DNA of 33,723 bases, from positions 1 to 33,723 of the IMG/VR virus record IMGVR_UViG_3300035188_000575, one strand, 5' to 3'. This document shows, piece after piece, positions 3,678 to 25,422 of this stretch. Position 1 is the stretch's first letter. Each line of letters begins with the position of its first letter. Source of the DNA: a virus. Under the pieces are notes generated by a model that worked only from the letters and a program-made list of their open reading frames with translations, had not been told where the DNA came from and did no database searches. The position numbers and the translations under genes are program-made.

Positions 3678-3708
3678 TTGACTTTTAAAAAAGATTTAAG
3701 TAAATTTA
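3678..3708 (+). promoter_or_regulatory. Bacteroidota-type promoter for the head operon
   Basis: TTG at 3678-3680 (within TTGACTTTT) is separated by exactly 20 bases from TAAATTTA at 3701-3708, which matches TAnnTTTG except for the last base. This is the -33/-7 architecture of the primary sigma factor of Bacteroidota. The expected start of transcription is about 10-14 bases upstream of the ATG at 3726. The same TTGACTTT box and 20-base spacer occur at the two other promoters in this window. Confidence 0.7.
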
Positions 3709-4865: not shown

Positions 4866-6353
4866 ATGGCAGGAATGTTTCCTTTACAAGAGACTACCCC
4901 TACAGATTGGTCTGGATTAACTACAGTTAATCACTTGTATTCTATTTATGGAATGGAGCCTCAGAAAGCATCTAATCTTATTACTATGATTCGCCAAGCG
5001 AATTACGGTTTAGATTTCAATAACTTTCTTGAAACTCAATTTGGTGTAGAATACTATGATTCTGATGCTGATTTCAGATGGATGTTGCAGGGTCACTCTC
5101 GCAAAAATATACCTCTTATTCGTGCAGAAATTAACGGTACTACTGTTACTGGAGCAGATAAGACAGGTATTAACATGTCTCACTTCACCCTTGTTTTTGG
5201 AGAAAATTATTTCTCTGAAACTGATTTAATTGTCGGTGAAAAAAATGAACGCTATCCAATTCGTATTGTGGAAGAACCAACTTTTGTTGGTAATGAAGTA
5301 CATTATAATTGTGAATTGTTTACTGGCGATGATGATCTTTTTATTCCTTTTGAAGAACTTCAAGAGAGCAAAAGATTCTCTAAAGAATGGAATCCAGTAG
5401 AAACTTATCTTTCTACTAAAGGCGGAACTGTAAACTACACTTCTCCATTCTCTATGATTAACCGTTTCTCTTCTATTCGTATGGAAGATACTCGTCCTGG
5501 TAATTTTGCAGCAAAGCCTGTATCATTTACTTGGATGACTGGAGACGGTCCTAAAACTACTTGGTTGCAGTATGCAGACTGGGAATTTGATACTCAGTTT
5601 CAAGATTCTCTTTCTTATCTTTTGATGTTTGCTACATCAAATCAGACTGAAGAAAAAACTTTCCGTCAAAAAGGTAAATCAGGTGTGCAAATTGTACAAG
5701 GAGCTGGTGTTAAGCAGCAAATTGATAGCTCAAACGTAGCTTATTATAATTCATTTACTGTTCAATATATTACTCAGTTTATGTTGGAAATGTCTATTAA
5801 TAGATTGTCGAAAGACCAACGTAAATTTATGTTCCGTACTGGCGAATGGGGTATGTATCAGTTTTCTGAATCTATCGAAGATTACACACAACTTTATACT
5901 CCTAATCAAACTGAATCTCGTATTTATATGGGTTCAGGAAATTCAATGGGGTATCGTGGCCAATTCCTTGAATATAAAGGTCCTAACGGACTTGAAGTAT
6001 CTGTAATGCATGAACCTCTTAATGACGACTTAGTTCGTAATAAGATTATGCACTCAGAAGGTGGTGTTGCAGAATCTCGCGTTTACTATATTTTGGATAT
6101 TGGTACTTCTAATGGAAATCGTAATATTCAAAAATGTTCTGTTCGTAACAGTACAACTCGTGCGGTAGTTCCTGGTATTCGTTGCAATCCAATGGCTCCT
6201 TCTTTGCAAGGCGGTTGGCAAATGGCAGCTAATCCTGTAGATGGTTGGTATATCACTATAATGGAACAAGGTATTGGTTCTCGCGTAACTGATCCTTCTC
6301 GTACTGGTATTATGTATCCAGCAGTTCTTGCTGATGTAGGTGTAACTTATTAA
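4866..6353 (+). CDS. Major capsid protein (crAss-like, HK97 fold expected)
   Basis: This 495-residue protein is the main shell subunit. Its length matches the roughly 490-500 residues of crAss-like major capsid proteins. Recognisable parts are the N-terminus MAGMFPLQETTPTDWSGL, WMLQGHSRKNIPLIRAEI near residue 75, and a late region RKFMFRTGEWGMYQFSESI typical of this family. It follows the scaffold-like gene by 18 bases and has an AT-rich leader (AAAAATTAATTAATT) with no Shine-Dalgarno sequence. Codon use differs from most neighbours: arginine is mainly CGT/CGC rather than AGA, and GCT, GGT and AAC are frequent. This is usual for the most abundant phage protein. It ends with two stops in tandem (TAATAA). 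The HK97 fold is established for the family, not shown here. Confidence 0.9.
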   Translation: MAGMFPLQETTPTDWSGLTTVNHLYSIYGMEPQKASNLITMIRQANYGLDFNNFLETQFGVEYYDSDADFRWMLQGHSRKNIPLIRAEINGTTVTGADKTGINMSHFTLVFGENYFSETDLIVGEKNERYPIRIVEEPTFVGNEVHYNCELFTGDDDLFIPFEELQESKRFSKEWNPVETYLSTKGGTVNYTSPFSMINRFSSIRMEDTRPGNFAAKPVSFTWMTGDGPKTTWLQYADWEFDTQFQDSLSYLLMFATSNQTEEKTFRQKGKSGVQIVQGAGVKQQIDSSNVAYYNSFTVQYITQFMLEMSINRLSKDQRKFMFRTGEWGMYQFSESIEDYTQLYTPNQTESRIYMGSGNSMGYRGQFLEYKGPNGLEVSVMHEPLNDDLVRNKIMHSEGGVAESRVYYILDIGTSNGNRNIQKCSVRNSTTRAVVPGIRCNPMAPSLQGGWQMAANPVDGWYITIMEQGIGSRVTDPSRTGIMYPAVLADVGVTY

Positions 6354-7935: not shown

Positions 7936-9141
7936 ATGTTTACACAAAGAAATATTTCTTATGTTCTTGTTGGTAAAGATTTAGCAGCTACCACAGCTAC
8001 TAGAGCTGAAAATCTCTTAGATGGTGAAGTTGCTATTACCAACGTATTTGGACAAGTTCTTACTTCTGGTACAGGAGTAAAAAAAATTATGATTCATCAA
8101 GGTGGATCAACTAGGGTAACTGATGTTATTACAGCTGCTGATGTAGTTAATGTTAAAACAAAAGGTTATGCAGCTGCTACTGAGCAAGTTGATTTTATAG
8201 GTTATAACGGAACAGCTGGTTCTATTGTTGTTGCTAACTCAAATGATTATTTCGTTCGTCTTCAATTTCCTTTTGGAGATCGTGGACAAGAGTTTCCTCA
8301 ACAGAATTTCATTTTTGCGCATTATCTTTCTGATGCAACTGCTACACAAGCAGAAATTGCTAAAAATTTAGCTAATGTAATGAACGCAGATGCTCGTAAA
8401 AGATATGAGCGCGATCTTCGTGTAGAATTGATTTGTGATAATGCTGGTGTTGCTGTAACAGGTGCTCCAACTAACCTTACTTTTACTCAAGATTCTAAAA
8501 CTGTTGTTTGGACAGGTACTGATCCAACTAACATTGTAGCTGGAGTTTGGCTTCGTGTAGGTGGTACTACTACTGCATCACCTGTATATGAAGTTGCTTC
8601 TATCGATGCTGCTTCTAATACTTTACAGTTAGTTACTCCTTTTGTAGGAGCTACTGCTACTGTTCTTGTAGCCAATGTCGAAATGATTACTGCTGCACTT
8701 GCAGACGCAGCTGCTTTCGGAATGAAACTTATAGGAATTCCTCGTAAATTCCGTCTTAAAGAAGGTGTTCGTTATCGTAAAGCTAAATGGATTCCTACAA
8801 TACAAGGTTTCGGTTCAACTTTAATTACTCGTTCTGTAGCTTCTTTCTTAGGATCAGGAGTTTATGAACAAGTCGCCGAAGAAGATCTCTTTGGAGATAT
8901 TATCTTTGGTAATGGATATTCTCGTGTTGATGTTCGTTTCCAACCTAATCTTTATGCTGAAGTTGGTGGACAATACGGTTGTGTAACAATTGTATGGGAT
9001 GATAAAACAAATCATACTATTGGTCCTAATTCAATAAGTCGTAAATCTGCTAGAATATTCTTCAATGACCAAGCTTCTGCTCAGGCTGTTGAATTCCTTA
9101 CTACTCTTGGTGAGGTTATGAATACTACTTATACTTTCTAA
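7936..9141 (+). CDS. Abundant virion structural protein (possibly auxiliary capsid or tail), unassigned
   Basis: This 401-residue protein is last in the head operon and directly precedes the terminator. It is rich in Ala, Thr, Val and Gly, with beta-strand-like segments throughout. Notable segments are NISYVLVGKDLAATTATRAE at the start, YFVRLQFPFGDRGQEF near residue 105, a Thr/Val-rich insert around residues 175-245 that looks like an immunoglobulin-like or other small beta domain (LTFTQDSKTVVWTGTDP), and LYAEVGGQYGCVTIVWDD near the end. Like the major capsid gene it uses CGT, GCT and GGT codons heavily, so I infer high expression. There is no signal peptide or membrane segment. Candidates are an auxiliary capsid protein or another major virion component. 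An AT-rich leader (ATTAAATTAAATTAAA) precedes the ATG. Confidence 0.6.
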   Translation: MFTQRNISYVLVGKDLAATTATRAENLLDGEVAITNVFGQVLTSGTGVKKIMIHQGGSTRVTDVITAADVVNVKTKGYAAATEQVDFIGYNGTAGSIVVANSNDYFVRLQFPFGDRGQEFPQQNFIFAHYLSDATATQAEIAKNLANVMNADARKRYERDLRVELICDNAGVAVTGAPTNLTFTQDSKTVVWTGTDPTNIVAGVWLRVGGTTTASPVYEVASIDAASNTLQLVTPFVGATATVLVANVEMITAALADAAAFGMKLIGIPRKFRLKEGVRYRKAKWIPTIQGFGSTLITRSVASFLGSGVYEQVAEEDLFGDIIFGNGYSRVDVRFQPNLYAEVGGQYGCVTIVWDDKTNHTIGPNSISRKSARIFFNDQASAQAVEFLTTLGEVMNTTYTF

Positions 9142-9165
9142 TTTTAAGTAAATCAATAAATTATA

Positions 9166-9199
9166 AAAAGGAGGAGAGGGTAATCCTCTACCTCCTTTT
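9166..9199 (+). terminator. Strong hairpin terminator ending the head operon
   Basis: The left arm AAAAGGAGGAGAGG (9166-9179) pairs with CCTCT and CCTCCTTTT (9185-9199). There is one bulged A at 9190 and a five-base loop GTAAT, giving about 14 base pairs with a G/C-rich core. The 3' arm ends in a T run. It starts 25 bases after the stop at 9141 and is by far the most stable hairpin seen in this AT-rich window. The reverse strand would also end in a T run, but no genes run that way. Confidence 0.88.
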
Positions 9200-9221
9200 A
9201 TATTATAAAAATTAATAAAAA

Positions 9222-9809
9222 ATGGCATTTGTTCCAAAAATAAATTTTTGTCTTGAAAAAAATAACGATGGTGATTATTTTCTTCAAGTTACGGATACTA
9301 CAGATATATATGATGATCCAGATAATATAACTGGCTGGGAAGATGCAACTACTCTTTTATCAGGAGATGTCGATTCATTAATATTAGATGTTTCAATAAT
9401 AGATTCTTCTAATGTCGAATCTACATTTAATATAGACACTACAGATTCGCTAGTTGATCCTGTTACAGGAACTTTTGAATTGAATCCTATTTTAAATACT
9501 GATATTTCATTAATAGATGGTTTTTATAAAGTTACTTATACTGTAACAGCAGGAACAACTATTTATACTGTATGTAAACAAAAATTAATTTATACAAATG
9601 TTGCTTGTTGTATTAGTAAATCTATAACGAAACTTTTAAAAAACCCTTCAGATACTGAACAGCAATTATTTGTAGATAAAATAAAAGCTTTAGAATTTGC
9701 GTTAATTGAATCAGGAAAAACTTTAGATCATATATCTGGTTTAAAAATTTTAGCTTTACTTCAAGACTATTGTAATTCACCACAGGCAAATTGTGGATGC
9801 GGATGTTAA
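9222..9809 (+). CDS. Fibre-cassette protein with Cys-rich C-terminal domain
   Basis: This 195-residue protein has two parts. Residues 1 to about 120 are beta-rich and acidic with many Thr, Asp and Val, like a small beta-sandwich (SLILDVSIIDSSNVESTF, GFYKVTYTVTAGTTIYTV). The remainder is helical and bounded by cysteines: Cys129-Cys130, then a helical hairpin, then Cys184, Cys191, Cys193 and Cys195. The protein ends in NCGCGC. The cysteines could bind a metal or form disulfides. The following gene starts with a matching Cys cluster (MCQCLNSCGC), so the two products may interact. First gene after the terminator, with no promoter found in the 22-base gap, it presumably depends on readthrough. I do not recognise a named family; an attachment or base part for the fibres is plausible. 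Confidence 0.55.
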   Translation: MAFVPKINFCLEKNNDGDYFLQVTDTTDIYDDPDNITGWEDATTLLSGDVDSLILDVSIIDSSNVESTFNIDTTDSLVDPVTGTFELNPILNTDISLIDGFYKVTYTVTAGTTIYTVCKQKLIYTNVACCISKSITKLLKNPSDTEQQLFVDKIKALEFALIESGKTLDHISGLKILALLQDYCNSPQANCGCGC

Positions 9810-9830
9810 ATTAAAAAAAATAATAATTAA

Positions 9831-10748
9831 ATGTGTCAATGTTTAAATTCATGTGGTTGTGATTCTTCTGTAGAATTGCCTTATTTAAATGGACTTGATG
9901 GTTTAAATGGTAAATATGGAGGACATTCTTCAAAATGGACATTTAAATCAGAAATTATAGTTGCTCCTGTTATTAATACTTTACGTATGAATAATGCTAC
10001 TCCGGCTTCAGTAACTGCTTTATATATTCATCAAACAGATGCTAATGCTGTTAATATGAGTCTTTTTCTAGCCTCTTTTAATAATAGTAATAACTATGGT
10101 CTTATAAAAATTTTTAAAGAATATGACGATTCTAAATTTTGGATTGGTCGTATAACAAATGTAACTAATACAGCTTCTTATTATACCATAACTGTAACTT
10201 ATATACATCATAATGGTACTTTCAATAGTGATGAGGCTTTAATAGTATCTTTTACTCCTCAAGGTATACCTGGAAACGATGGAGATAATTCAACAACACT
10301 TGCTTGGGTAGAAGAATCTTTAACTACGGATCCTTTTGTTGAAACTAAAGCAAATACTGTAACAGGTGCTTTTTCAACAGTTTTAACTATTCCAGAAGAT
10401 ATTCTTGTGAATGATGAAGATTGTTACAAATTTCAAATTCATTTAGAAAATGCCGGTACTTCGGACGCTTCTACGGTACAGATTTTAGTAAATGCTACTA
10501 TACTCACTACAGTATATATACCTACAGGTAAATCATATATATACGGCGAGATAAATGAAACAAAACATTTTTTTATTACAACTGAAAAATATGCAGCAGG
10601 AGTATTTGTAGAAAAAGAATATATAGAAGGACATACAGCTGGAATTCCTAATTTTACTTCTACAAATACCATATCTTTAAATGTAACTTCAAATAAAGGT
10701 GGTTTGACAATTAATAAAATACAATCAGAAATAATTCTTAAAGGATAA
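9831..10748 (+). CDS. Fibre-like protein with N-terminal Cys cluster and short collagen-like motifs
   Basis: This 305-residue protein begins MCQCLNSCGC (Cys2, 4, 8, 10), followed by a Gly-X-Y-like stretch GLDGLNGKYGG. A domain covering about residues 33-140 follows (SSKWTFKSE, then SVTALYIHQTDANAVNMSL and KIFKEYDDSKFWIGRI), of a type I recognise from fibres of Bacteroidota phages. A second Gly-X-Y patch, PQGIPGNDGDN, is near residue 142. The last 150 residues are beta-rich with alternating Thr/Val/Ile strands and probably form the distal domain. Collagen-like links usually mean a trimer. The gene follows the Cys-tailed 195-residue protein by 21 bases and overlaps the next fibre gene by one base (TAATG). 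Whether it sits on the head or the tail cannot be told. Confidence 0.65.
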   Translation: MCQCLNSCGCDSSVELPYLNGLDGLNGKYGGHSSKWTFKSEIIVAPVINTLRMNNATPASVTALYIHQTDANAVNMSLFLASFNNSNNYGLIKIFKEYDDSKFWIGRITNVTNTASYYTITVTYIHHNGTFNSDEALIVSFTPQGIPGNDGDNSTTLAWVEESLTTDPFVETKANTVTGAFSTVLTIPEDILVNDEDCYKFQIHLENAGTSDASTVQILVNATILTTVYIPTGKSYIYGEINETKHFFITTEKYAAGVFVEKEYIEGHTAGIPNFTSTNTISLNVTSNKGGLTINKIQSEIILKG

Positions 10749-11605
10749 TGGCAACTAGAAATAATTTTGTATATAATTATACAATTACAAATTCAGGAGG
10801 TACTCTTAGTCTTGTTGCTAATGAACCTTACAATTTATATCGATTAACAGGTACTCCTACACTATCTTCTAACTTTACGGTTAGTGATTCCGGAGCAGCT
10901 GCTACAGGAACTGAATATCGTATTCTTTATGATGCTACAGTAAATCTTAATGGTAATACTATGACTATTTTTGGAGCAAGTATTCCCGCTGATCTAACTA
11001 ATGTACAATTCGAAGTAAGAGCTTATCACCAAGGATCAGGTGTTTGGAAAACAAATATTCTTGTTGATTTTGAATCGATTCCTTTTATTACAGGTAATAT
11101 GATTGAAGACGATACTATTGAAACAGTTCATATTCAAGATGATGCTATAATAGAAGATAAAATATTAGATGCCGCAGTAACTAAAAATAAAATAGCAAAT
11201 AATGCTATTACTACTGTAAAAATAGAAGATGAAGCAGTAACAGCAGCTAAATTAAATCCAGCAGCTAAAAAAGAAGTACTTACTGTTCCTATTTCTTTTG
11301 ATTCGGGAGAACAATCTGAAAATACTTTTACAATACCTTATGATTTTGAAATAACTTCAATTAGGTATACTGTAACAAAAGTAATAGCAGGAACAGATGC
11401 TGCATCAATATCACTATCTATTAATGGTGTTGCTATGACTCCAGGTTCAATTTCAATACCTGCCTCTACTTTAATTAACACTACTTCTTCTACAAATATA
11501 ACAGCAACTAATACTGGTACTGCTAATCAGCAAGTAAAAGTAACTTCAGCAAAAGCAACAGCAGGAGGAAAAGCTTTATTAACTATCAATTTAGAAAGAG
11601 TATAA
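10748..11605 (+). CDS. Fibre protein with beta-helical repeat shaft
   Basis: This 285-residue protein has three parts. Residues 1 to about 112 are beta-rich (SLVANEPYNLYRLTGTPTL, YRILYDATVNLNGNTMTI). Residues of about 117-173 carry a short repeat with the pattern D-x-A-I/V-x-x-x-K-I, for example IQDDAIIEDKI, LDAAVTKNKIA, NNAITTVKIED and EAVTAAKLNP. This is a phage-fibre repeat that forms intertwined beta-helical shafts. The C-terminal 110 residues begin after PAAKKEVLTVPISF and form a Ser/Thr/Ala-rich beta domain suited to surface binding. It is tied to both neighbours by one-base TAATG overlaps. A trimeric receptor-binding or adhesion fibre is the best reading; the ligand is unknown. Confidence 0.65.
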   Translation: MATRNNFVYNYTITNSGGTLSLVANEPYNLYRLTGTPTLSSNFTVSDSGAAATGTEYRILYDATVNLNGNTMTIFGASIPADLTNVQFEVRAYHQGSGVWKTNILVDFESIPFITGNMIEDDTIETVHIQDDAIIEDKILDAAVTKNKIANNAITTVKIEDEAVTAAKLNPAAKKEVLTVPISFDSGEQSENTFTIPYDFEITSIRYTVTKVIAGTDAASISLSINGVAMTPGSISIPASTLINTTSSTNITATNTGTANQQVKVTSAKATAGGKALLTINLERV

Positions 11606-11841
11606 TGACACAAGAAATATTAGCTTCTCATATAGGATATTTATATAATGAACATAAAGAATATGCTGTAAAAATTAAAGATAAATTAAATTTAGGAATA
11701 GCTTGTCAAAATCAATTAATAAATTTAAGAAATGCTTTTTACGGAATTCAAGAATTAGAAAATTATTATACAGATTGTTCTTGTTTAGAAGAAACTGATC
11801 TTTGTGATATTATACATCAAATTAAAAATTTATTAAACTAA
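11605..11841 (+). CDS. Small Cys-containing helical protein in fibre cassette
   Basis: This 78-residue, apparently all-helical protein has Cys34, Cys58, Cys60 and Cys67 (DCSCLEETDLC). No signal peptide or membrane segment is visible. Its layout, helices with a C-x-C and an outlying Cys, resembles the C-terminal part of the 195-residue protein at 9222-9809, so it may be a stand-alone version of that Cys-rich domain. It is coupled to the fibre gene before it by TAATG, and the next fibre gene starts immediately after its stop. A connector, chaperone or cap for the adjacent fibres is possible. No named family is recognised. Confidence 0.55.
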   Translation: MTQEILASHIGYLYNEHKEYAVKIKDKLNLGIACQNQLINLRNAFYGIQELENYYTDCSCLEETDLCDIIHQIKNLLN

Positions 11842-14970: not shown

Positions 14971-16035
14971 ATGGAAAATAAACAAAAAGCATTAGAATTA
15001 CTTAACATTCCTTCTGAATTTGAGGAAGTAAATGGTCAAGTAAATACCGTAACAGATAATATAATTATCATTGAAAAAACATTTGATTTTTTAAGAAAAG
15101 GAGCATCTGATGCTGTAAAACCAGAAAACATTAGTATTAAAATCACTACTGGTTCTCAAGTGGTTTTGAATTCTGATATGATTAATACTATAGATCCTTT
15201 AAAGACTAAATCAATATCTCTTTTTGGTGCTTATTCTTATAATATGATAGCTAATTATATTCATGGTTTTAATTATCAGCACATTCCTGGAACTAAAACA
15301 CTAGTTAAAGATAATCGTTCTTTTGTTTGCGAACCTACTTCAGACGGATGGGATCTTAAAACACTTAACAATCCGTTTATAGCTAGTAGCGACAAAGTTA
15401 ATCCTACTCTTATGGGAGGTACTTTTATTGTATTAAATCGTATCATAAGCGGACAAAAAAGTGTTAAAGCTGATGGTACTGTTACCATTATAAAAGAAAA
15501 TATAACTGTCAATCGTCATCGTAGAGCTACTGTTACAAAAAATGAACTTGAATCTTGGGGTTTTGATTTTAATGAAATACAAAACGCAACAGCAAAAGTA
15601 TTTAATGTTAAAACTGTAAATCCTTCAACACATGTAACATCAATGGCTATGGATGTTGAACTTACGGATAATAGTTATAAAGGAGTTGTTTATATTAATG
15701 GTGTTAAGTTTAATGAAATACCATATACTTCATTAATGGCTTCTTATGGAAAATTATTTCCTAATTTTATATTTAGATGGATGCTTTATAATGGTCAAAA
15801 TAATTCTATGACAACAGGAGCTACTTGGTTAAAGCAATATTCTGCTTCTGAAAACAATACTATAATCGTAAATTCAGGAGAAACATTTAATGTTAACGGC
15901 AATGAAGTTACTTTTAATAATAATTCTCCAGCAGAATTGATAGCTTATATGGAATGTTTACCTGCACAAGGTAAAAATGAAAATACAGGGGCACTTGTAG
16001 ATTTAAAAACAGGATTAGAAAAACTTTGGGCCTAA
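14971..16035 (+). CDS. Unrecognised 354-residue protein between fibre and lysis genes
   Basis: I do not recognise a family. The chain is mixed alpha/beta. It starts MENKQKALELLNIPSEFEEV, and its features include a hydrophobic strand NIIIIEKTFDFLRKGA near residue 30, GGTFIVLNRII near residue 150, a basic patch VNRHRRATVTKNELESWGF near residue 181, and the C-terminal YMECLPAQG. There is no signal peptide or transmembrane segment and no obvious enzyme motif. The gene has an AT-rich leader (AATTAAATAAAATAAAA) after an 18-base gap and is followed closely by the first holin-like gene. Position suggests a virion protein, perhaps of the fibre or baseplate region. Confidence 0.5.
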   Translation: MENKQKALELLNIPSEFEEVNGQVNTVTDNIIIIEKTFDFLRKGASDAVKPENISIKITTGSQVVLNSDMINTIDPLKTKSISLFGAYSYNMIANYIHGFNYQHIPGTKTLVKDNRSFVCEPTSDGWDLKTLNNPFIASSDKVNPTLMGGTFIVLNRIISGQKSVKADGTVTIIKENITVNRHRRATVTKNELESWGFDFNEIQNATAKVFNVKTVNPSTHVTSMAMDVELTDNSYKGVVYINGVKFNEIPYTSLMASYGKLFPNFIFRWMLYNGQNNSMTTGATWLKQYSASENNTIIVNSGETFNVNGNEVTFNNNSPAELIAYMECLPAQGKNENTGALVDLKTGLEKLWA

Positions 16036-16048
16036 AAATTAAAAATCT

Positions 16049-16321
16049 ATGCATATATCTGAAATATTATTAGAATCTAAAAAATTAGTATTAGCAGCAA
16101 TAGATAGTTTTACAGCAGGGACTGTTTTTATAGCAACAGCCCTTTCTTTAGATAATCTTGATATTATATATAAAATAATTATGATTGCTGTAGGAACTCT
16201 TTTATTTCTTAGAGGTTTTATTAACTATCAAAAATCTAAACTTGATAAAAAAATTAAAGAATATGATTTGAAAATAAAAAGAAAAGAATATGAACAAATT
16301 TTGGAAAAAACTGAAATATAA
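16049..16321 (+). CDS. Holin-like small membrane protein
   Basis: This 90-residue protein has two hydrophobic segments, about residues 16-34 (VLAAIDSFTAGTVFIATAL) and 39-58 (IIYKIIMIAVGTLLFLRGFI). A strongly charged Lys/Glu tail predicted to be helical follows. Size, two membrane spans and a charged cytoplasmic tail fit a class II holin, which would make the inner-membrane lesion that starts lysis. It is first of five overlapping genes that include an endolysin, which strengthens the case. The gene overlaps the next by 32 bases. An alternative is another small phage membrane protein of unknown role. Confidence 0.6.
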   Translation: MHISEILLESKKLVLAAIDSFTAGTVFIATALSLDNLDIIYKIIMIAVGTLLFLRGFINYQKSKLDKKIKEYDLKIKRKEYEQILEKTEI

Positions 16322-16670
16322 ATTAGAATTTTATGATGGTATATGGTCAATACCATTAGCTTTTTTAGCTTTCTTTTTAGGAGGTAAATATTCATTTAAA
16401 TATTTCGGTGATGCTTTGATATCAACAGAATATATTCAATACGGATTGTTATCATCTTTAATTATGATATTTATGAATTTTGTTGTTTTATTAGGAGCTA
16501 GATTTAATTTTAAATCTTTACAGAATTATTTTTATTCCAAAGAAGTTAAAGAAGACGTAGCAAAAAATTTATCAACATGGCAAAGATTAAGACTTTATTT
16601 ATTTGTTTACTTTGGATTATCATTCCTTTTTATTCTTATTCTGTTTCTAGTTATGATTATGACTGCATAA
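16290..16670 (+). CDS. Three-span membrane protein in lysis cassette
   Basis: This 126-residue protein has a basic N-terminus (MNKFWKKLKYKLEFYDG) and three hydrophobic segments, near residues 18-36, 50-70 and 100-125. The last, after STWQRLRLYLFVYFG, runs to the C-terminus. Proteins with this closing segment recur in Bacteroidota phages beside lysis genes. It could be a second holin, an antiholin or an accessory membrane protein. It overlaps the gene before by 32 bases and the endolysin gene by 94 bases, so the DNA coding its last membrane span also codes the endolysin signal peptide in another frame. Confidence 0.6.
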   Translation: MNKFWKKLKYKLEFYDGIWSIPLAFLAFFLGGKYSFKYFGDALISTEYIQYGLLSSLIMIFMNFVVLLGARFNFKSLQNYFYSKEVKEDVAKNLSTWQRLRLYLFVYFGLSFLFILILFLVMIMTA

Positions 16671-17158
16671 TATACAATTCAACAGAACACATTGATATAA
16701 CTGAAAAGGGTGGTAATAATAAAGGATTTTCAGATCCTTTATTTGAAAAACAAATGAGAGCTGTAGGTTGGAAACCCTCAATGGCTTGGTGTAGTTTTTT
16801 AGTAAAACTTTGGCTAACTCAATGTAATATTCCACATACTATTACTGGCTGGTCTCCTACTTCCTATAATAAAAATGATGTTATATATACTGACGGAGAA
16901 TTCAAACAACCTTATTTCAAAAATGATATTTTAGTAATGTCATTATCTTATGATAAATTTAAAAATGTCAAATCAAGATATAAAGGCATTGGACATACCG
17001 GATTAGTTAAAGAAATAGGAACACATTCAGTTATTACTATTGAAGGTAATACAAATGATTTAGGAACTAGAGATTCAAGAACAGGGGATGGTGTATATCA
17101 AAAAAGAAGACCATTAAACAAAAAAATACATATAACAAGATGGGGAAAAAGAAGTTAA
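16577..17158 (+). CDS. Endolysin, CHAP/NlpC-P60-like peptidoglycan hydrolase with signal peptide
   Basis: This 193-residue protein starts with a classical export signal: a basic MAKIK, a hydrophobic core (TLFICLLWIIIPF), and a small/polar region SYSVSS. The mature part has the order expected of a CHAP-type cysteine peptidase or amidase: Cys72 in SMAWCSFLVKLWL, His140 in GIGHTGLV, and a polar third residue in IEGNTN (Glu156/Asn158). Earlier, KGGNNKGFSDPLFEKQMRAV resembles the entrance helix of phage lysins of this class. It should cut the peptide part of host peptidoglycan after Sec export, making holin needed mainly for timing or activation. The start at 16577 lies 94 bases inside the membrane-protein gene; the fitting signal peptide supports it. 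The stop overlaps the next start by 19 bases. Confidence 0.78.
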   Translation: MAKIKTLFICLLWIIIPFYSYSVSSYDYDCIIYNSTEHIDITEKGGNNKGFSDPLFEKQMRAVGWKPSMAWCSFLVKLWLTQCNIPHTITGWSPTSYNKNDVIYTDGEFKQPYFKNDILVMSLSYDKFKNVKSRYKGIGHTGLVKEIGTHSVITIEGNTNDLGTRDSRTGDGVYQKRRPLNKKIHITRWGKRS

Positions 17159-17520
17159 TAAAAAGTTTACCTTGGTTTTTATTAGGAATAACTTTAATTA
17201 TATTAACTATACAGACTGTAAAAGGTTGTAATAATAAATATATAGAAAATCCTGCTGAACAAGGTATAAAAACAATGCAGTTAAAATTAGACTCTATATC
17301 AAAATCACTAGACCAGAAAAAAGATATTATTAGAGATACTTTAATAATGCAAAAGAATAATGAAAAGACAATAGTTAAACAACTTCAAGATATAAATAAT
17401 TATTATGAAAATAAACAAGATACTATTATCTTTATGCCTGTCACTGATACTCTCGCTAGGCGTAAAGTCGATGAGTGGGTTCGTGGAGATGAAAAAGGAT
17501 ACTACAATATACCTAAGTAA
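17140..17520 (+). CDS. Spanin-like envelope protein with N-terminal membrane anchor
   Basis: This 126-residue protein has a basic start (MGKKKLIKSL) and a hydrophobic segment (about residues 11-27), followed by VKGC with Cys30. A long Gln/Lys/Asp-rich region of about 60 residues then looks like a periplasmic coiled coil (LKLDSISKSLDQKKDI, MQKNNEKTIVKQLQDINNYY). The layout fits an inner-membrane spanin. Alternatively, if VKGC acts as a relaxed lipobox, it would be a lipoprotein of the outer membrane. It follows the endolysin with a 19-base overlap and itself overlaps the next gene by 116 bases in another frame, as Rz/Rz1 pairs often do. Spanins fuse inner and outer membranes at the end of lysis. 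The role is inferred from layout and position. Confidence 0.58.
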   Translation: MGKKKLIKSLPWFLLGITLIILTIQTVKGCNNKYIENPAEQGIKTMQLKLDSISKSLDQKKDIIRDTLIMQKNNEKTIVKQLQDINNYYENKQDTIIFMPVTDTLARRKVDEWVRGDEKGYYNIPK

Positions 17521-17878
17521 AGATACTGTAATATGTTTAAACGGTGAAGAATTTCGTGTTGTTTTAAAAATGTCTAATGCTTATGATTATTATTATAATG
17601 CTTATTATGTACATACTGAAAAATTAATTCCTAATTTAAGAACACAAATAACTTTACTAAATGAAGTATTAGAAATTGAAGAATACCAAAAAGAAATAAA
17701 TAAAGCTATTTCAACAGGTGATCAAGCATTAATTGCTCAAGCAAGAGATAATTATACAAAAAAAGCTAAAGACTTTAAAAAGATAAAACGACAATTGATT
17801 TTTTATAAAACTCTTTCTATTGCTGAAGCAGTTGTGATTACAGGACTAACAGGTTATATAGTTATATCAAAGCTTTAA
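17405..17878 (+). CDS. Spanin-partner candidate with signal peptide and C-terminal membrane span
   Basis: This 157-residue protein begins MKINKILLSLCLSLILSLG, a good signal peptide without a convincing lipobox (the Cys11 lies in the middle of the hydrophobic core). A short beta-like part (TTIYLSKDTVICLNGEEFRV) is followed by a long helical region of about residues 57-135, rich in Tyr, Lys and Glu. The last 20 residues are hydrophobic (AEAVVITGLTGYIVISKL), so the protein may be anchored by its C-terminus with its coiled coil in the periplasm. The first 116 bases are shared with the preceding spanin-like gene in another frame. It is the last gene before the 17900 promoter. It could be one half of an unusual spanin pair or an unrelated envelope protein. 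Confidence 0.55.
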   Translation: MKINKILLSLCLSLILSLGVKSMSGFVEMKKDTTIYLSKDTVICLNGEEFRVVLKMSNAYDYYYNAYYVHTEKLIPNLRTQITLLNEVLEIEEYQKEINKAISTGDQALIAQARDNYTKKAKDFKKIKRQLIFYKTLSIAEAVVITGLTGYIVISKL

Positions 17879-17899: not shown

Positions 17900-17930
17900 T
17901 TGACTTTTAATAAAAAGTGTTGTACCTTTG
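17900..17930 (+). promoter_or_regulatory. Bacteroidota-type promoter for metallophosphoesterase/tail operon
   Basis: TTG at 17900-17902 (CTTGACTTTT) and TACCTTTG at 17923-17930 are separated by exactly 20 bases, a full match to TTG-N20-TAnnTTTG. The gap between lysis and tail genes (17879-17954) is one of only a few noncoding gaps over 50 bases. The expected leader before the ATG at 17955 is about 17-20 bases and contains AATTAAAAATTAAG. Confidence 0.85.
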
Positions 17931-19247: not shown

Positions 19248-19433
19248 ATGGTAACATTAACGCAAGAAGACATTAAAAAATTATTTGAGTATTTGAATAC
19301 TCAACCTTACAAATTTTCAGCACCTATTTTTGAATTCTTTTATGCAAAAATGAATTCAAAAACAGAAACTTCACCTGAGCAACCTCAAAGTGAAACTGAA
19401 GTTCCTAAGACAAGGACTAAAACAAAACCATAA
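19248..19433 (+). CDS. Small protein with disordered Pro/Thr/Lys tail
   Basis: This 61-residue protein has a helical N-terminal half (TQEDIKKLFEYLNTQPYKFS, then APIFEFFYAKMN) and a tail of Ser, Thr, Pro, Glu and Lys ending KTRTKTKP that should be unstructured. It starts 7 bases after the previous stop and shares TAATG with the following tail gene. No family is recognised. Position suggests a small virion or assembly protein. Confidence 0.5.
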   Translation: MVTLTQEDIKKLFEYLNTQPYKFSAPIFEFFYAKMNSKTETSPEQPQSETEVPKTRTKTKP

Positions 19434-21400: not shown

Positions 21401-24400
21401 TGGAACAACCTTTTATTAACACCTATATTAAAGGTTTAGATAAAGATACTACACCAACTAAATATTCTCCAGAAAAATATTATCATCTGGAAAATTTTCG
21501 CATTGTTACAGCTGGAGGATCTTCTTTAGCGTCACTTGAAAATGAATTAGGTAATCGTCTTGATTTTAAACTTCCTAATTTACAAGGAGTTTATAAAATT
21601 AAAGAAGAAGATATAGGATCAGTTGTTGTTACTTTATTTGGTGATAGTTATTCAGAAACTTTTGATTCTACAGGTTATGATATAACGCAATTCTATAATA
21701 TTATAGAATCTAATCCTACTATATCTTCAGTATTAGGTATTGACTTTAACATAGCATTAAACGATGGATATATTCTATTTTTTGGTTTAGATAATCTTAA
21801 TATATCTACTGTCGATTCTAATCATCTTATTACAATTGTAACTCCAACACCGTCTAATTTCTATTCAATAATACATCTTAACTACATAGATAATTACATT
21901 ATATTATTTACTTCTACAGGTCTTGGAGATGGTCAAATATGGTATATACCTTATAATGAACAAACTAATACAGTAAGTACTGTAAATGGAGAAATTATAC
22001 CTTCTCAGCATTTAAAATATAACAATCTCTTAAATATTGATTTCTCTAAAGCTATTAATAAATCGGTAGTTAGAAAAGAAACAGCTAAAGTTTGCAGAAT
22101 TTACTGGACTGATTTTTTTAATCCTTCTCGTAAATTTAATATTCTTGATCCTAAAGGGTTTGCTATTGAACCATCTGATTTAGATTTTGTACCTAATGTA
22201 TCTTTTACAAAACCAATTATTTCTGATATTTCTGACGGAGGTTATTTAAATTACGGATCGATGATTCAATTTGGTTATATTTTAATTGGATCTGGTAACG
22301 ATACTATAGTTTCTCCTTTATCTGATTTAGTTCCTATATACGGAGCCGATGATGAAACAGATGCTTTTGTAAATATAGAAGGTTCTACTTACCAACAGAG
22401 TTCAGGTAAAGCAGTTACGTATAAAATTAATGGTATTGATACTTCATTTTCTCAAATAAAGCATGTTGCTATTATTTATGAACTTGAAAATATTCCATTT
22501 ATAAAAGTATTTAAAACTGAAAATATACTTTCAGAAGATATTATTGTTACCTTTACTAACGGTGAAGAATATCAAACTCTTACTGAACAAGAATTAAATG
22601 ATATAAGAGCACAATTTGATACTTGTAAATCTCTTACTTCTCAGAATAATCGTCTTATAGCGGCTAATACTAAATCTACTAATTTTGAAGTTATAGATAC
22701 GTTATTCGATGCTAGAGCTTATCGTTTTAATTCTTCAGGAGTATCAAAAATTAAAGATAAATTAAACAATTTATTAACTGTTAATAATTCATTTGATGTT
22801 CCAGAAGAACATGATGCTATAAATCCATTTAATAATGAAGATGATCCTGACTACGATCTTTATAAGTATCAATCTGATGGCTCTACATTAGGAGGAGAAG
22901 GAGCTTTTATAAAATATAAATTTGTTACTAAAAAAGTTATTGTTGATGCTAAAGGACCTCTTGAAGTAACAGCAGCTCCTTTCGCTACTCCTATTGATAG
23001 AACAACTATTAATGAAGGAGAATATCAATTTACTAATCAATTTAAAAATTTCAAATCTCCATTTATTCATTTTTTATATTCTGGTTATACTAGAGATGAG
23101 ACTTATCGTTTTGCTATAGTTTTTATTTCCAAAAAAGGAAAACCTTCGTTTGTAAAATGGATAGGTGATATTAAGTTTCCGACTATTGAAGAAATGCCTT
23201 TGGAAACTTATACTGGTAATTTAAATGCTAACCAATTAGGTATTGAATTTGATGTTGCTATTCCAGATGAACTTTCTTCTCAGATATCAGGTTATGAAAT
23301 AGTTAGAGTCAATAGAGATTTAGCAAATAAAACTTCTTTAGGAGGTGGTCTTTTTGATCCTTTATTTCAATATACAGGCCAAGGAGGTCAAACTTCATCT
23401 TCATTAGAATATAATCATAGATGGGAAGCTCCTTATGTTGATATAACATCTTCATATACAGCTGCTGGTAATCATAATAATGTATTCTCTTTTATAAGTC
23501 CTCAATTATTATTTTTTGGACAAGACTATAAATCAGGAGATTATATAGAATTTAATTCCTATGCTAGAGTTATTAATAACTCTTTTCCTAATCAAGAAGA
23601 TGGATGGATTAATCCTATTCCTGTAAACTCAACTGGTATTGATTTTATTAAATTAAGAGAAAAATTATCTTATCCAACGCCTCAAAAATTAAATATACAA
23701 GGAGTAGCTTATGTTCCAGTTGGAGCAGGTGTATCTTTTACAAATGCTTTTCCTTCTTTAACTTCTAATACCGCAACTTATAATAATGAATTACCTGATG
23801 GTACTGGAAACGGAGGTCCTAAATATCTTTTTGCTGTAGATAATGATCAACAAATATCTGATGTTATTATTAACGACGACGAATCAATTCATTATATGAC
23901 TTATCGTAGAAAGCTTTTAAAGCAATACGGAGGTAATACTTTTGAAGAAAGATCAGGTAATACATATATGTCTACGTCATCTTTTCAAAATACTACTAAA
24001 TCAGCAGTATTTAATGTTTTTGGTGGAGATACTTATTGTAATTATTTTGGTTTTGAATATACTCAATACGCTGATGGTGGAGTAAATGCTACCTCTAAAG
24101 GAGTTTTCTTTGTTTCTGAATCTTCTTTTAATGTTGATTTAAGACATGGTAATTATTTTAATAAATCAAGAGCAAATATTAATTCATATACTCTTGAAAA
24201 TTATTATATTAATTCAGTATATGTTCAACAAAATAAAATAATTCAATATTTTAAAGCAAAACCATTTAACGCATCTTTAGAAGACGAACAACCTTATGCT
24301 ATTTGGGTTTCTGAAAAGAAACAAAATGGTGAACAACTTGATTCATGGTCTGCATTTAAAGTAAATAATCAAATTGAAGTTGATGGTGATTTTGGACCTA

Positions 24401-25391: not shown

Positions 25392-25422
25392 TTGACTTTG
25401 TTTAAATAATTATATATATTTG
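25392..25422 (+). promoter_or_regulatory. Bacteroidota-type promoter for cargo-protein operon
   Basis: TTG at 25392-25394 (CTTGACTTTG) and TATATTTG at 25415-25422 are separated by exactly 20 bases, a full match to TTG-N20-TAnnTTTG. Only 6 bases separate the last G from the ATG at 25429, so the transcript should start at or within a few bases of the start codon. Confidence 0.82.

Follow-up and report, generated by a model that had tools for sequence, protein, structure and literature searches.

A probable lysis cassette of five overlapping genes in a crAss-like phage, with a candidate spanin analogue that carries no lipobox

Spanins are defined either as an inner-membrane partner paired with an outer-membrane lipoprotein, or as a single lipoprotein with a C-terminal transmembrane (TM) segment (PMC6139136). 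Overlapping genes are the commonest arrangement of the two-component type (228/528), and annotation depends on the detection of a lipobox (PMC6139136), so that a system built without a lipoprotein would be systematically missed. Exported endolysins are known both as signal-peptide enzymes (fOg44) and as signal-arrest-release (SAR) types (PMC8879335). Little has been described of the way in which phages of Bacteroidota breach the outer membrane, and a review of Crassvirales touches on spanins and lysins in passing only (PMC10136315). Here, we analyse a putative lysis cassette of five genes, g1 to g5, carried by a viral record of the IMG/VR database (IMGVR_UViG_3300035188_000575). The whole 33,723-nucleotide (33.7 kb) stretch is referred to as the window.

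We read g1 to g5, with a rough probability of 0.72, as a compact, late-transcribed cassette directed at all three layers of the envelope, in which the outer-membrane step would be carried out by a tail-anchored spanin analogue that is not a lipoprotein. An earlier reading of the same DNA (the original prediction) had proposed that all three layers are covered, which our analysis supports at the level of module coverage. The cassette is widespread in IMG/VR, and the missing lipobox is the interesting result.

Results

Organization of the cassette

Every junction of the cassette overlaps, by 32, 94, 19 and 116 nt in order from g1 to g5 (Table 1). The original prediction had placed five genes with precisely these overlaps at positions 16049-17878, and the directly computed open reading frames reproduce both coordinates and overlaps exactly. 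No other junction of the window exceeds 44 nt of overlap, and most are gaps or overlap by no more than 11 nt. Relatives were reached via the capsid gene and via g3 itself, and IMG/VR holds 171 of them for g3 and 246 for g2. A gene-order comparison of the kind that had been proposed shows that the order and overlaps of g2 to g5 recur in dozens of these loci. Among the 76 IMG/VR loci in which 420 nt or more precede g3, g2 overlaps g3 in 74, by 94-124 nt in nearly all. The g3/g4 overlap measures 16-40 nt in relatives and the g4/g5 overlap 116-230 nt as first called, the largest of the latter being overestimates because several loci have a first possible start upstream of the probable one. Wherever a pair was correctly identified, the frame offset is constant: +2 for g2/g3, +2 for g3/g4 and +1 for g4/g5, the last also in pairs encoded on the reverse strand. 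All five genes are present in record G002 (locus L180), where the overlaps measure 35, 106, 16 and 158 nt.

Table 1. Features of the cassette and its surroundings (positions in the window)
Feature	Position	Strand	Product	Description
g1	16049..16321	+	90 aa, ATG	small membrane protein with a hydrophobic hairpin followed by a K-rich tail; second holin/antiholin candidate
g2	16290..16670	+	126 aa, ATG	three predicted TM segments
g3	16577..17158	+	193 aa, ATG	CHAP/NlpC-P60 papain-like peptidase with predicted N-terminal signal peptide
g4	17140..17520	+	126 aa, ATG	i-spanin-like: one predicted N-terminal TM segment, membrane-proximal Cys30, coiled coil
g5	17405..17878	+	157 aa, ATG	leader of signal peptidase I type, coiled coil, basic patch, C-terminal hydrophobic tail
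g2/g3 double-coding stretch	16577..16670	+	94 nt	encodes the third TM segment of g2 in one frame and the g3 signal peptide in another
g4/g5 double-coding stretch	17405..17520	+	116 nt	g5 in +1 frame
Bacteroidota-type promoter candidate	17900..17930	+		TTGACTTT-N15-TACCTTTG, just 3' of g5
Neighbouring gene	14971..16035	+	354 aa	no assigned function; homologues adjoin the cassette in 27/84 relatives

Constraint within the overlaps

To describe constraint, we compared codons at conserved residues in 24 representatives less than 90% identical in g3; pairs among them are non-independent and the figures are descriptive. Identical codons were more frequent inside than outside the overlap in g3 (0.80 versus 0.44), g4 (0.65 versus 0.46), g5 (0.65 versus 0.45) and g2 (0.58 versus 0.48), where random synonymous choice would give 0.35-0.40. 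The four genes agree, and the overlap is 3'-terminal in two of them and 5'-terminal in the other two. Upon synonymous shuffling of g4, the g5 frame survives in 4.5% of trials for the window and in a mean of 2.1% over the 24 representatives, in all of which it is actually open. The open frame of g2/g3 is unsurprising by itself (80% of shuffles in the window), and the case for double coding there therefore rests on the codon constraint. Recurring frame offsets, codon constraint and the g4-shuffling result together place the overlaps beyond chance: they are real double coding, constrained in both frames.

Architecture of the g4/g5 pair

The layout of g4 is that of an inner-membrane spanin (i-spanin): a single N-terminal TM segment, seen by hydropathy in relatives, is followed by a coiled coil that was judged only from heptad-like sequence and Rz-like PHROG matches. 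More than 90% of members have a cysteine at about position 30, just after the TM segment (absent in L208 and L180), which gives one partner the periplasmic cysteine that spanin pairs usually have at least once. The product of g5 begins with an export leader, continues as a coiled coil and closes with a basic patch followed by a hydrophobic tail at the very C terminus. Among 29 members made non-redundant at <80% identity, a mean of 5.7 Lys or Arg residues lies in the 15 positions preceding the tail and 0.17 follow it. For both genes, the PHROG match most widely shared among members is to Rz-like spanins; it is weak (best E = 7e-4 for g4 and 4e-3 for g5) and occurs for g4 in 10 of 22 members. 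In overlapping spanin pairs the second gene lies in the +1 frame, as g5 does. The g5 leader ends in ...GQ or ...SQ in nearly all relatives, which corresponds to the Bacteroidota Q-rule for signal peptidase I (SPase I; PMC5837995).

The original prediction had called both proteins spanin-like. Architecture, gene overlap and context bear this out, but the lipobox of an outer-membrane partner (o-spanin) was sought and not found: within the first 50 residues, none of 61 g5 proteins has one, and in g4 there was one spurious match inside the TM segment (L274). Nor does g5 conform to a unimolecular spanin (u-spanin), given that a C-terminal hydrophobic tail is present and a lipoylation signal is absent. 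The pair thus appears spanin-like by all indirect signs while the defining feature is missing, and we do not file it among the spanins. If the leader is used, the basic patch of g5 would be periplasmic, contrary to the positive-inside rule for an ordinary stop-transfer segment of the inner membrane. A tail that is directed to the outer membrane, or is fusogenic, is a possible explanation for this odd placement.

A cysteine right behind the hydrophobic segment of g4 is nearly universal, and could mean that g4 itself is the o-spanin, lipidated at Cys30, with g5 as an i-spanin anchored by a C-terminal TM segment. This would involve a reversed gene order and a non-consensus lipobox, and experiments have validated atypical lipoboxes such as AWAC (PMC6139136). 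However, the hydrophobic stretch of g4 is of TM length, Lys or Arg is common at position -2 and Thr or Ser is found at -1, and the divergent L208 and L180 proteins without the cysteine indicate that it is not essential. We therefore regard a lipidated g4 as improbable.

Genomic contexts of the pair

Pairs of the same design adjoin CHAP endolysins (the window, G002 and dozens more) as well as amidases (G005 and G007), and the amidases beside the pair in L181 and L182 are without a signal peptide. In one clade (L242, L256, L262, L266 and L232), the pair lies on the opposite strand behind g3, convergent with it and with the +1 overlap kept, and can hence be transcribed apart from holin and endolysin. 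We rejected loss of the pair at loci with no plus-strand g4/g5: both strands were read in five, where the pair is inverted. Profile searches connect the main family (E = 1e-5 to 1e-2) with the reverse-strand pairs and with that of G005, and a scan with a window-type g5 profile returned only CHAP cassettes that were already known. Like its architecture, the mobility of the pair was computed directly.

These contexts bear on a different role for g4 and g5, in which the two would face the periplasm from the inner membrane and regulate either the holin or the exported endolysin in an antiholin-like manner, the outer membrane being broken by osmotic force or by another gene. Anchoring of both proteins in the inner membrane is the default reading of their sequences, and the g5 leader is of the cleavable type, like that of the T4 periplasmic antiholin RI (PMC8385771). 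Moreover, 91 of 677 surveyed phages (~13%) have no recognised spanin (PMC6139136). On the other hand, a pair that also accompanies amidases without signal peptides (L181, L182), and that also lies on the strand opposite g3, is not bound to any single endolysin or holin, and its overlap and frame match the spanin pattern. We consider a regulatory pair unlikely, if somewhat less so than a lipidated g4.

Positions 8698-9918 of the related record L002 form a lysis region with an M15/VanY-like endolysin, a two-TM gene and a u-spanin of canonical type that has the lipobox LIAC and a C-terminal TM segment; the overlaps there are 4 and 53 nt. This u-spanin occupies the site corresponding to g4/g5, and such a replacement at the same site is the strongest indirect indication that g4/g5 act as a spanin would. 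The lysis region of Cellulophaga phage phi14:2 (g076-g078) has the same genome position, ahead of a metallophosphoesterase and a phrog_9863 virion gene, and contains, in place of CHAP plus g4/g5, a GH19-like endolysin together with just one protein that has an N-terminal TM segment and a beta-rich-looking C terminus.

Proteins with one N-terminal TM segment and a beta-rich-looking C terminus ending in hydrophobic/aromatic strands occur at the corresponding site in other phages (g076 of NC_021806, L003, reverse complement, 22193-22771; L189, 7006-7671; L190, 2319-2948). They are possible trans-envelope spanins with a beta anchor in the outer membrane.

The location of the cassette among structural genes, and the 354-residue neighbour that accompanies it, would also suit small genes that encode virion or tail-assembly proteins and stand beside an endolysin by chance. 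Such a coincidence is very improbable given the membrane or leader architecture of all four small proteins, the inseparability of g2 and g3, and the lysis modules of phi14:2 and L002 at the corresponding position.

The g3 endolysin

Alone, the g3 protein of the window matches Pfam CHAP weakly (E = 0.026); 40 of 43 relatives match, the best at E = 2.2e-7, and the window protein matches PHROG 9589 (“endolysin”) at 3e-7. An AlphaFold (AF2) model computed from a 43-sequence alignment reached a mean predicted local distance difference test (pLDDT) score of 89.5 and was used in place of a two-sequence model, which reached 32 and was discarded. Its top match in BFVD is a viral CHAP protein (E = 1.9e-19, template-modelling score 0.92 on the target), and structural alignment gave Z values of 8-11 to NlpC/P60 and CHAP structures, including the endolysins LysIME-EF1, PlyGRCS, LysGH15 and LysK. 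A plain Foldseek search against the PDB returned nothing at E < 0.001 and a PDB sequence search with g3 profiles gave no match, and the fold call rests on BFVD, VIA-align, Pfam and motifs.

Cys72, His140, Glu156 and Asn158 are invariant in 43 of 43 g3 sequences, so that by invariance the catalytic set of Cys72, His140 and a third polar residue is present. Fold and invariant residues, both computed directly, uphold the signal-peptide endolysin with Cys72 and His140 that had been predicted, and the structure prediction suggested at that time yielded a CHAP peptidase rather than a fold outside the peptidases and amidases. Cys30 and Cys83 are found in 41 of the 43 sequences and are absent jointly from the remaining two, a pattern that reads as a disulfide signature and would fit an oxidised periplasmic protein.

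The N terminus of g3 consists of a basic start, 13-15 hydrophobic residues, a proline and small residues, followed by NDGYC. Relatives likewise have a helix-breaking proline and small residues ahead of NDGYC, an arrangement that, as read from sequence, resembles an SPase I site. A cysteine is frequent in this N-terminal region (position 10 in 26 of 43), and we considered a SAR protein with redox caging of Cys72 as in P1 Lyz. We set this aside in view of the joint loss of Cys30 and Cys83, suggestive of a structural disulfide, and of a leader that looks cleavable. Our firm assignment of g3, drawn from sequence and model, is to a predicted exported peptidase endolysin of CHAP fold, a new leader-bearing member of the CHAP class.

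The membrane proteins g2 and g1

The g2 proteins are 37-66% identical to that of the window and, by hydropathy, have three TM segments in most members. With its small size and a position adjoining the endolysin, g2 fits the class I holin layout; no PHROG match was found below E = 0.006. A search with g2 only yielded 78 loci that had not been fetched before, many of them from contigs already seen, and g3 is encoded in all 78. Since every g2 locus also has g3, the two form a functional pair, and g2 is a probable holin; the linkage itself was computed directly.

The conserved partner of the endolysin is thus g2, and the proposal of two holins is not borne out in that form. Among g3 cassettes, g1 is confined to the window and G002 (L180/L196), with 31% identity between the two (tblastn E = 0.26), and it is absent from all other g3-bearing relatives examined. 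Lysis in this cassette family must accordingly work without g1, which we regard as an optional accessory and a candidate second holin or antiholin. A two-TM gene of g1-like design is found at the same position in G007 (L182). NCBIfam and Pfam matches of g1, g2, g4 and g5 (SpoIIGA, SLC3A2, EMC3 and others) were far under the cut-offs and were ignored.

Transcription and timing

The combination of TTGACTTT and TAnnTTTG, a promoter of the Bacteroidota type, occurs at 20-nt spacing exactly twice in the window (17900 and 25392), both times in intergenic DNA, which makes up 2% of it. A third, inexact copy at 3678-3708 has this spacing too; all three sites (3678-3708, 17900-17930 and 25392-25422) are intergenic and combine TTGACTTT with TAnnTTT(G/A). 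They are probable Bacteroidota-type promoters that would split the structural region into units. The 13 nt ahead of g1 leave no room for a promoter and, together with the placement of the promoter-like sites, this suggests that the cassette is probably the 3' end of a long late unit beginning near 3.7 kb, the end of which is marked by the site at 17900. Timing is then likely to be post-transcriptional and to depend on holin accumulation and on translation of the overlapping genes. A sigma-70 scan of the window gave nothing above shuffled sequence, and none of three terminator-like sites lies at the cassette.

Phage identity and neighbouring genes

Terminase, portal and virion genes of the window match PHROG head and packaging families. 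Its major capsid protein is 35-37% identical to those of Crassvirales (phi14:2, crAss001 and DAC17), bearing out the original prediction of a crAss-like phage, and homologous capsid, portal and terminase proteins stand in a Crassvirales-like virion gene order. Setting aside one identical copy (L011), the closest capsids in IMG/VR are 58-64% identical. These comparisons place the phage among crAss-like phages, outside the genera that have cultured members. The overlaps are not peculiar to this group, most relatives of the cassette being more distant phages: among 20 larger cassette-bearing records tested, capsid genes were only remotely related in ten and none was found in the other ten. A g2-g5 cassette with merely remote capsid similarity (E 1e-12 to 1e-28) was seen in G023, G024, G025, G027, G029-G032, G034 and G039. 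Such capsids hint at a wider clade around Crassvirales or at exchange of lysis modules. A g3 scan of genome contigs found just two remote matches, in Clostridium metagenome-assembled genomes, which provide no evidence of a host or prophage.

Homologues of the 354-residue neighbour mostly lie directly upstream of g2 and at times inverted downstream, and in G002 behind g5 (for example, L180, reverse complement, 5031-6113; L242, 3629-4729). Across diverged phages, this protein and the lysis genes seem to move together. A short gene of ~78 residues at 11605-11841, missing from the simple list of reading frames, resembles L180 (reverse complement) 910-1146. Homologues of the virion gene at 19433 contain an in-frame TAG in L171 (record G019) and TAA in L178 (G018), as expected from stop-codon recoding or intron insertion in crAss-like phages.

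Discussion

We propose the following sequence of events. In a host belonging to the Bacteroidota, the cassette would be expressed late, and the CHAP peptidase g3 would be exported by Sec and wait in the periplasm. The time of lysis would be set by g2, which would permeabilise or depolarise the inner membrane, with peptidoglycan cut afterwards. An inner-membrane-anchored g4 with its periplasmic coiled coil and an exported g5 would then come together in a complex by which the outer membrane is disrupted or fused, and g1 would act as an optional modulator, as a second holin or an antiholin.

Several points weigh against this proposal. Lysis functions, order of events, topology and the membrane entered by the g5 tail are all read from sequence and model. 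Signal peptides and TM segments were assigned from hydropathy, and the holin-like label of g1 and g2 derives from TM count and position alone. The accepted route to the outer membrane, an o-spanin lipobox, is missing from g4/g5, and the g5 of the window is without the +1 Gln seen in relatives. The Rz-like PHROG matches may reflect coiled-coil bias, and for the pairs of G007 and G009 the link is chiefly one of architecture and position, with weak sequence homology.

A bolder version, which we hold tentatively and at less than even odds, is that g4/g5 are the first members of a third class of system for disrupting the outer membrane. In this “tail-anchored spanin” of two components, which phages of Bacteroidota would use, an SPase I (Q-rule) leader would replace the lipid anchor and the membrane would be engaged via the basic patch and the hydrophobic C terminus.

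Searches of 50,697 annotated phage records gave no match to g2 or g5 and, for g3, one remote CHAP match for each of two queries, and the cassette has no close match in PHROGs or Pfam. No paper describing it was found in the open-access literature, subscription papers lying outside the search. Being small and well defined, the cassette lends itself to three questions: what keeps an exported CHAP endolysin inactive in a diderm host, whether the lipid anchor is dispensable for a spanin, and why double-coding overlaps persist across diverged phages.

Compared with described systems, g4/g5 come closest to lambda Rz/Rz1 and to overlapped two-component spanins of the P2 LysB/LysC class. Shared features are their place as the final genes of the cassette, the start of the second gene inside the first (+1), a first protein with one N-terminal TM segment and a periplasmic coiled coil, and a periplasmic cysteine in one partner. 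In contrast to the second protein of these systems, g5 has no lipobox; instead, it has an SPase I-type leader and 140-160 residues in which a basic patch precedes the hydrophobic tail. The u-spanin gp11 of T1 resembles g5 in its N-terminal export signal, periplasmic domain and C-terminal hydrophobic segment, whereas g5 is not a lipoprotein, has a predicted coiled coil and is always accompanied by g4. The g3 protein shares with the catalytic domains of LysK, LysGH15, PlyGRCS and LysIME-EF1, which are phage lysis enzymes, the papain-like fold and a Cys-His pair with a third polar residue. It differs from them in having a single domain, a predicted signal peptide, a diderm host and the Cys30-Cys83 pair, at ~10% identity. 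With the signal-peptide endolysin Lys44 of Oenococcus phage fOg44 and the SAR endolysins P1 Lyz and R21, g3 would have in common Sec export ahead of holin triggering, but it is set apart by a leader that looks cleavable rather than SAR, a Gram-negative setting and a different catalytic domain.

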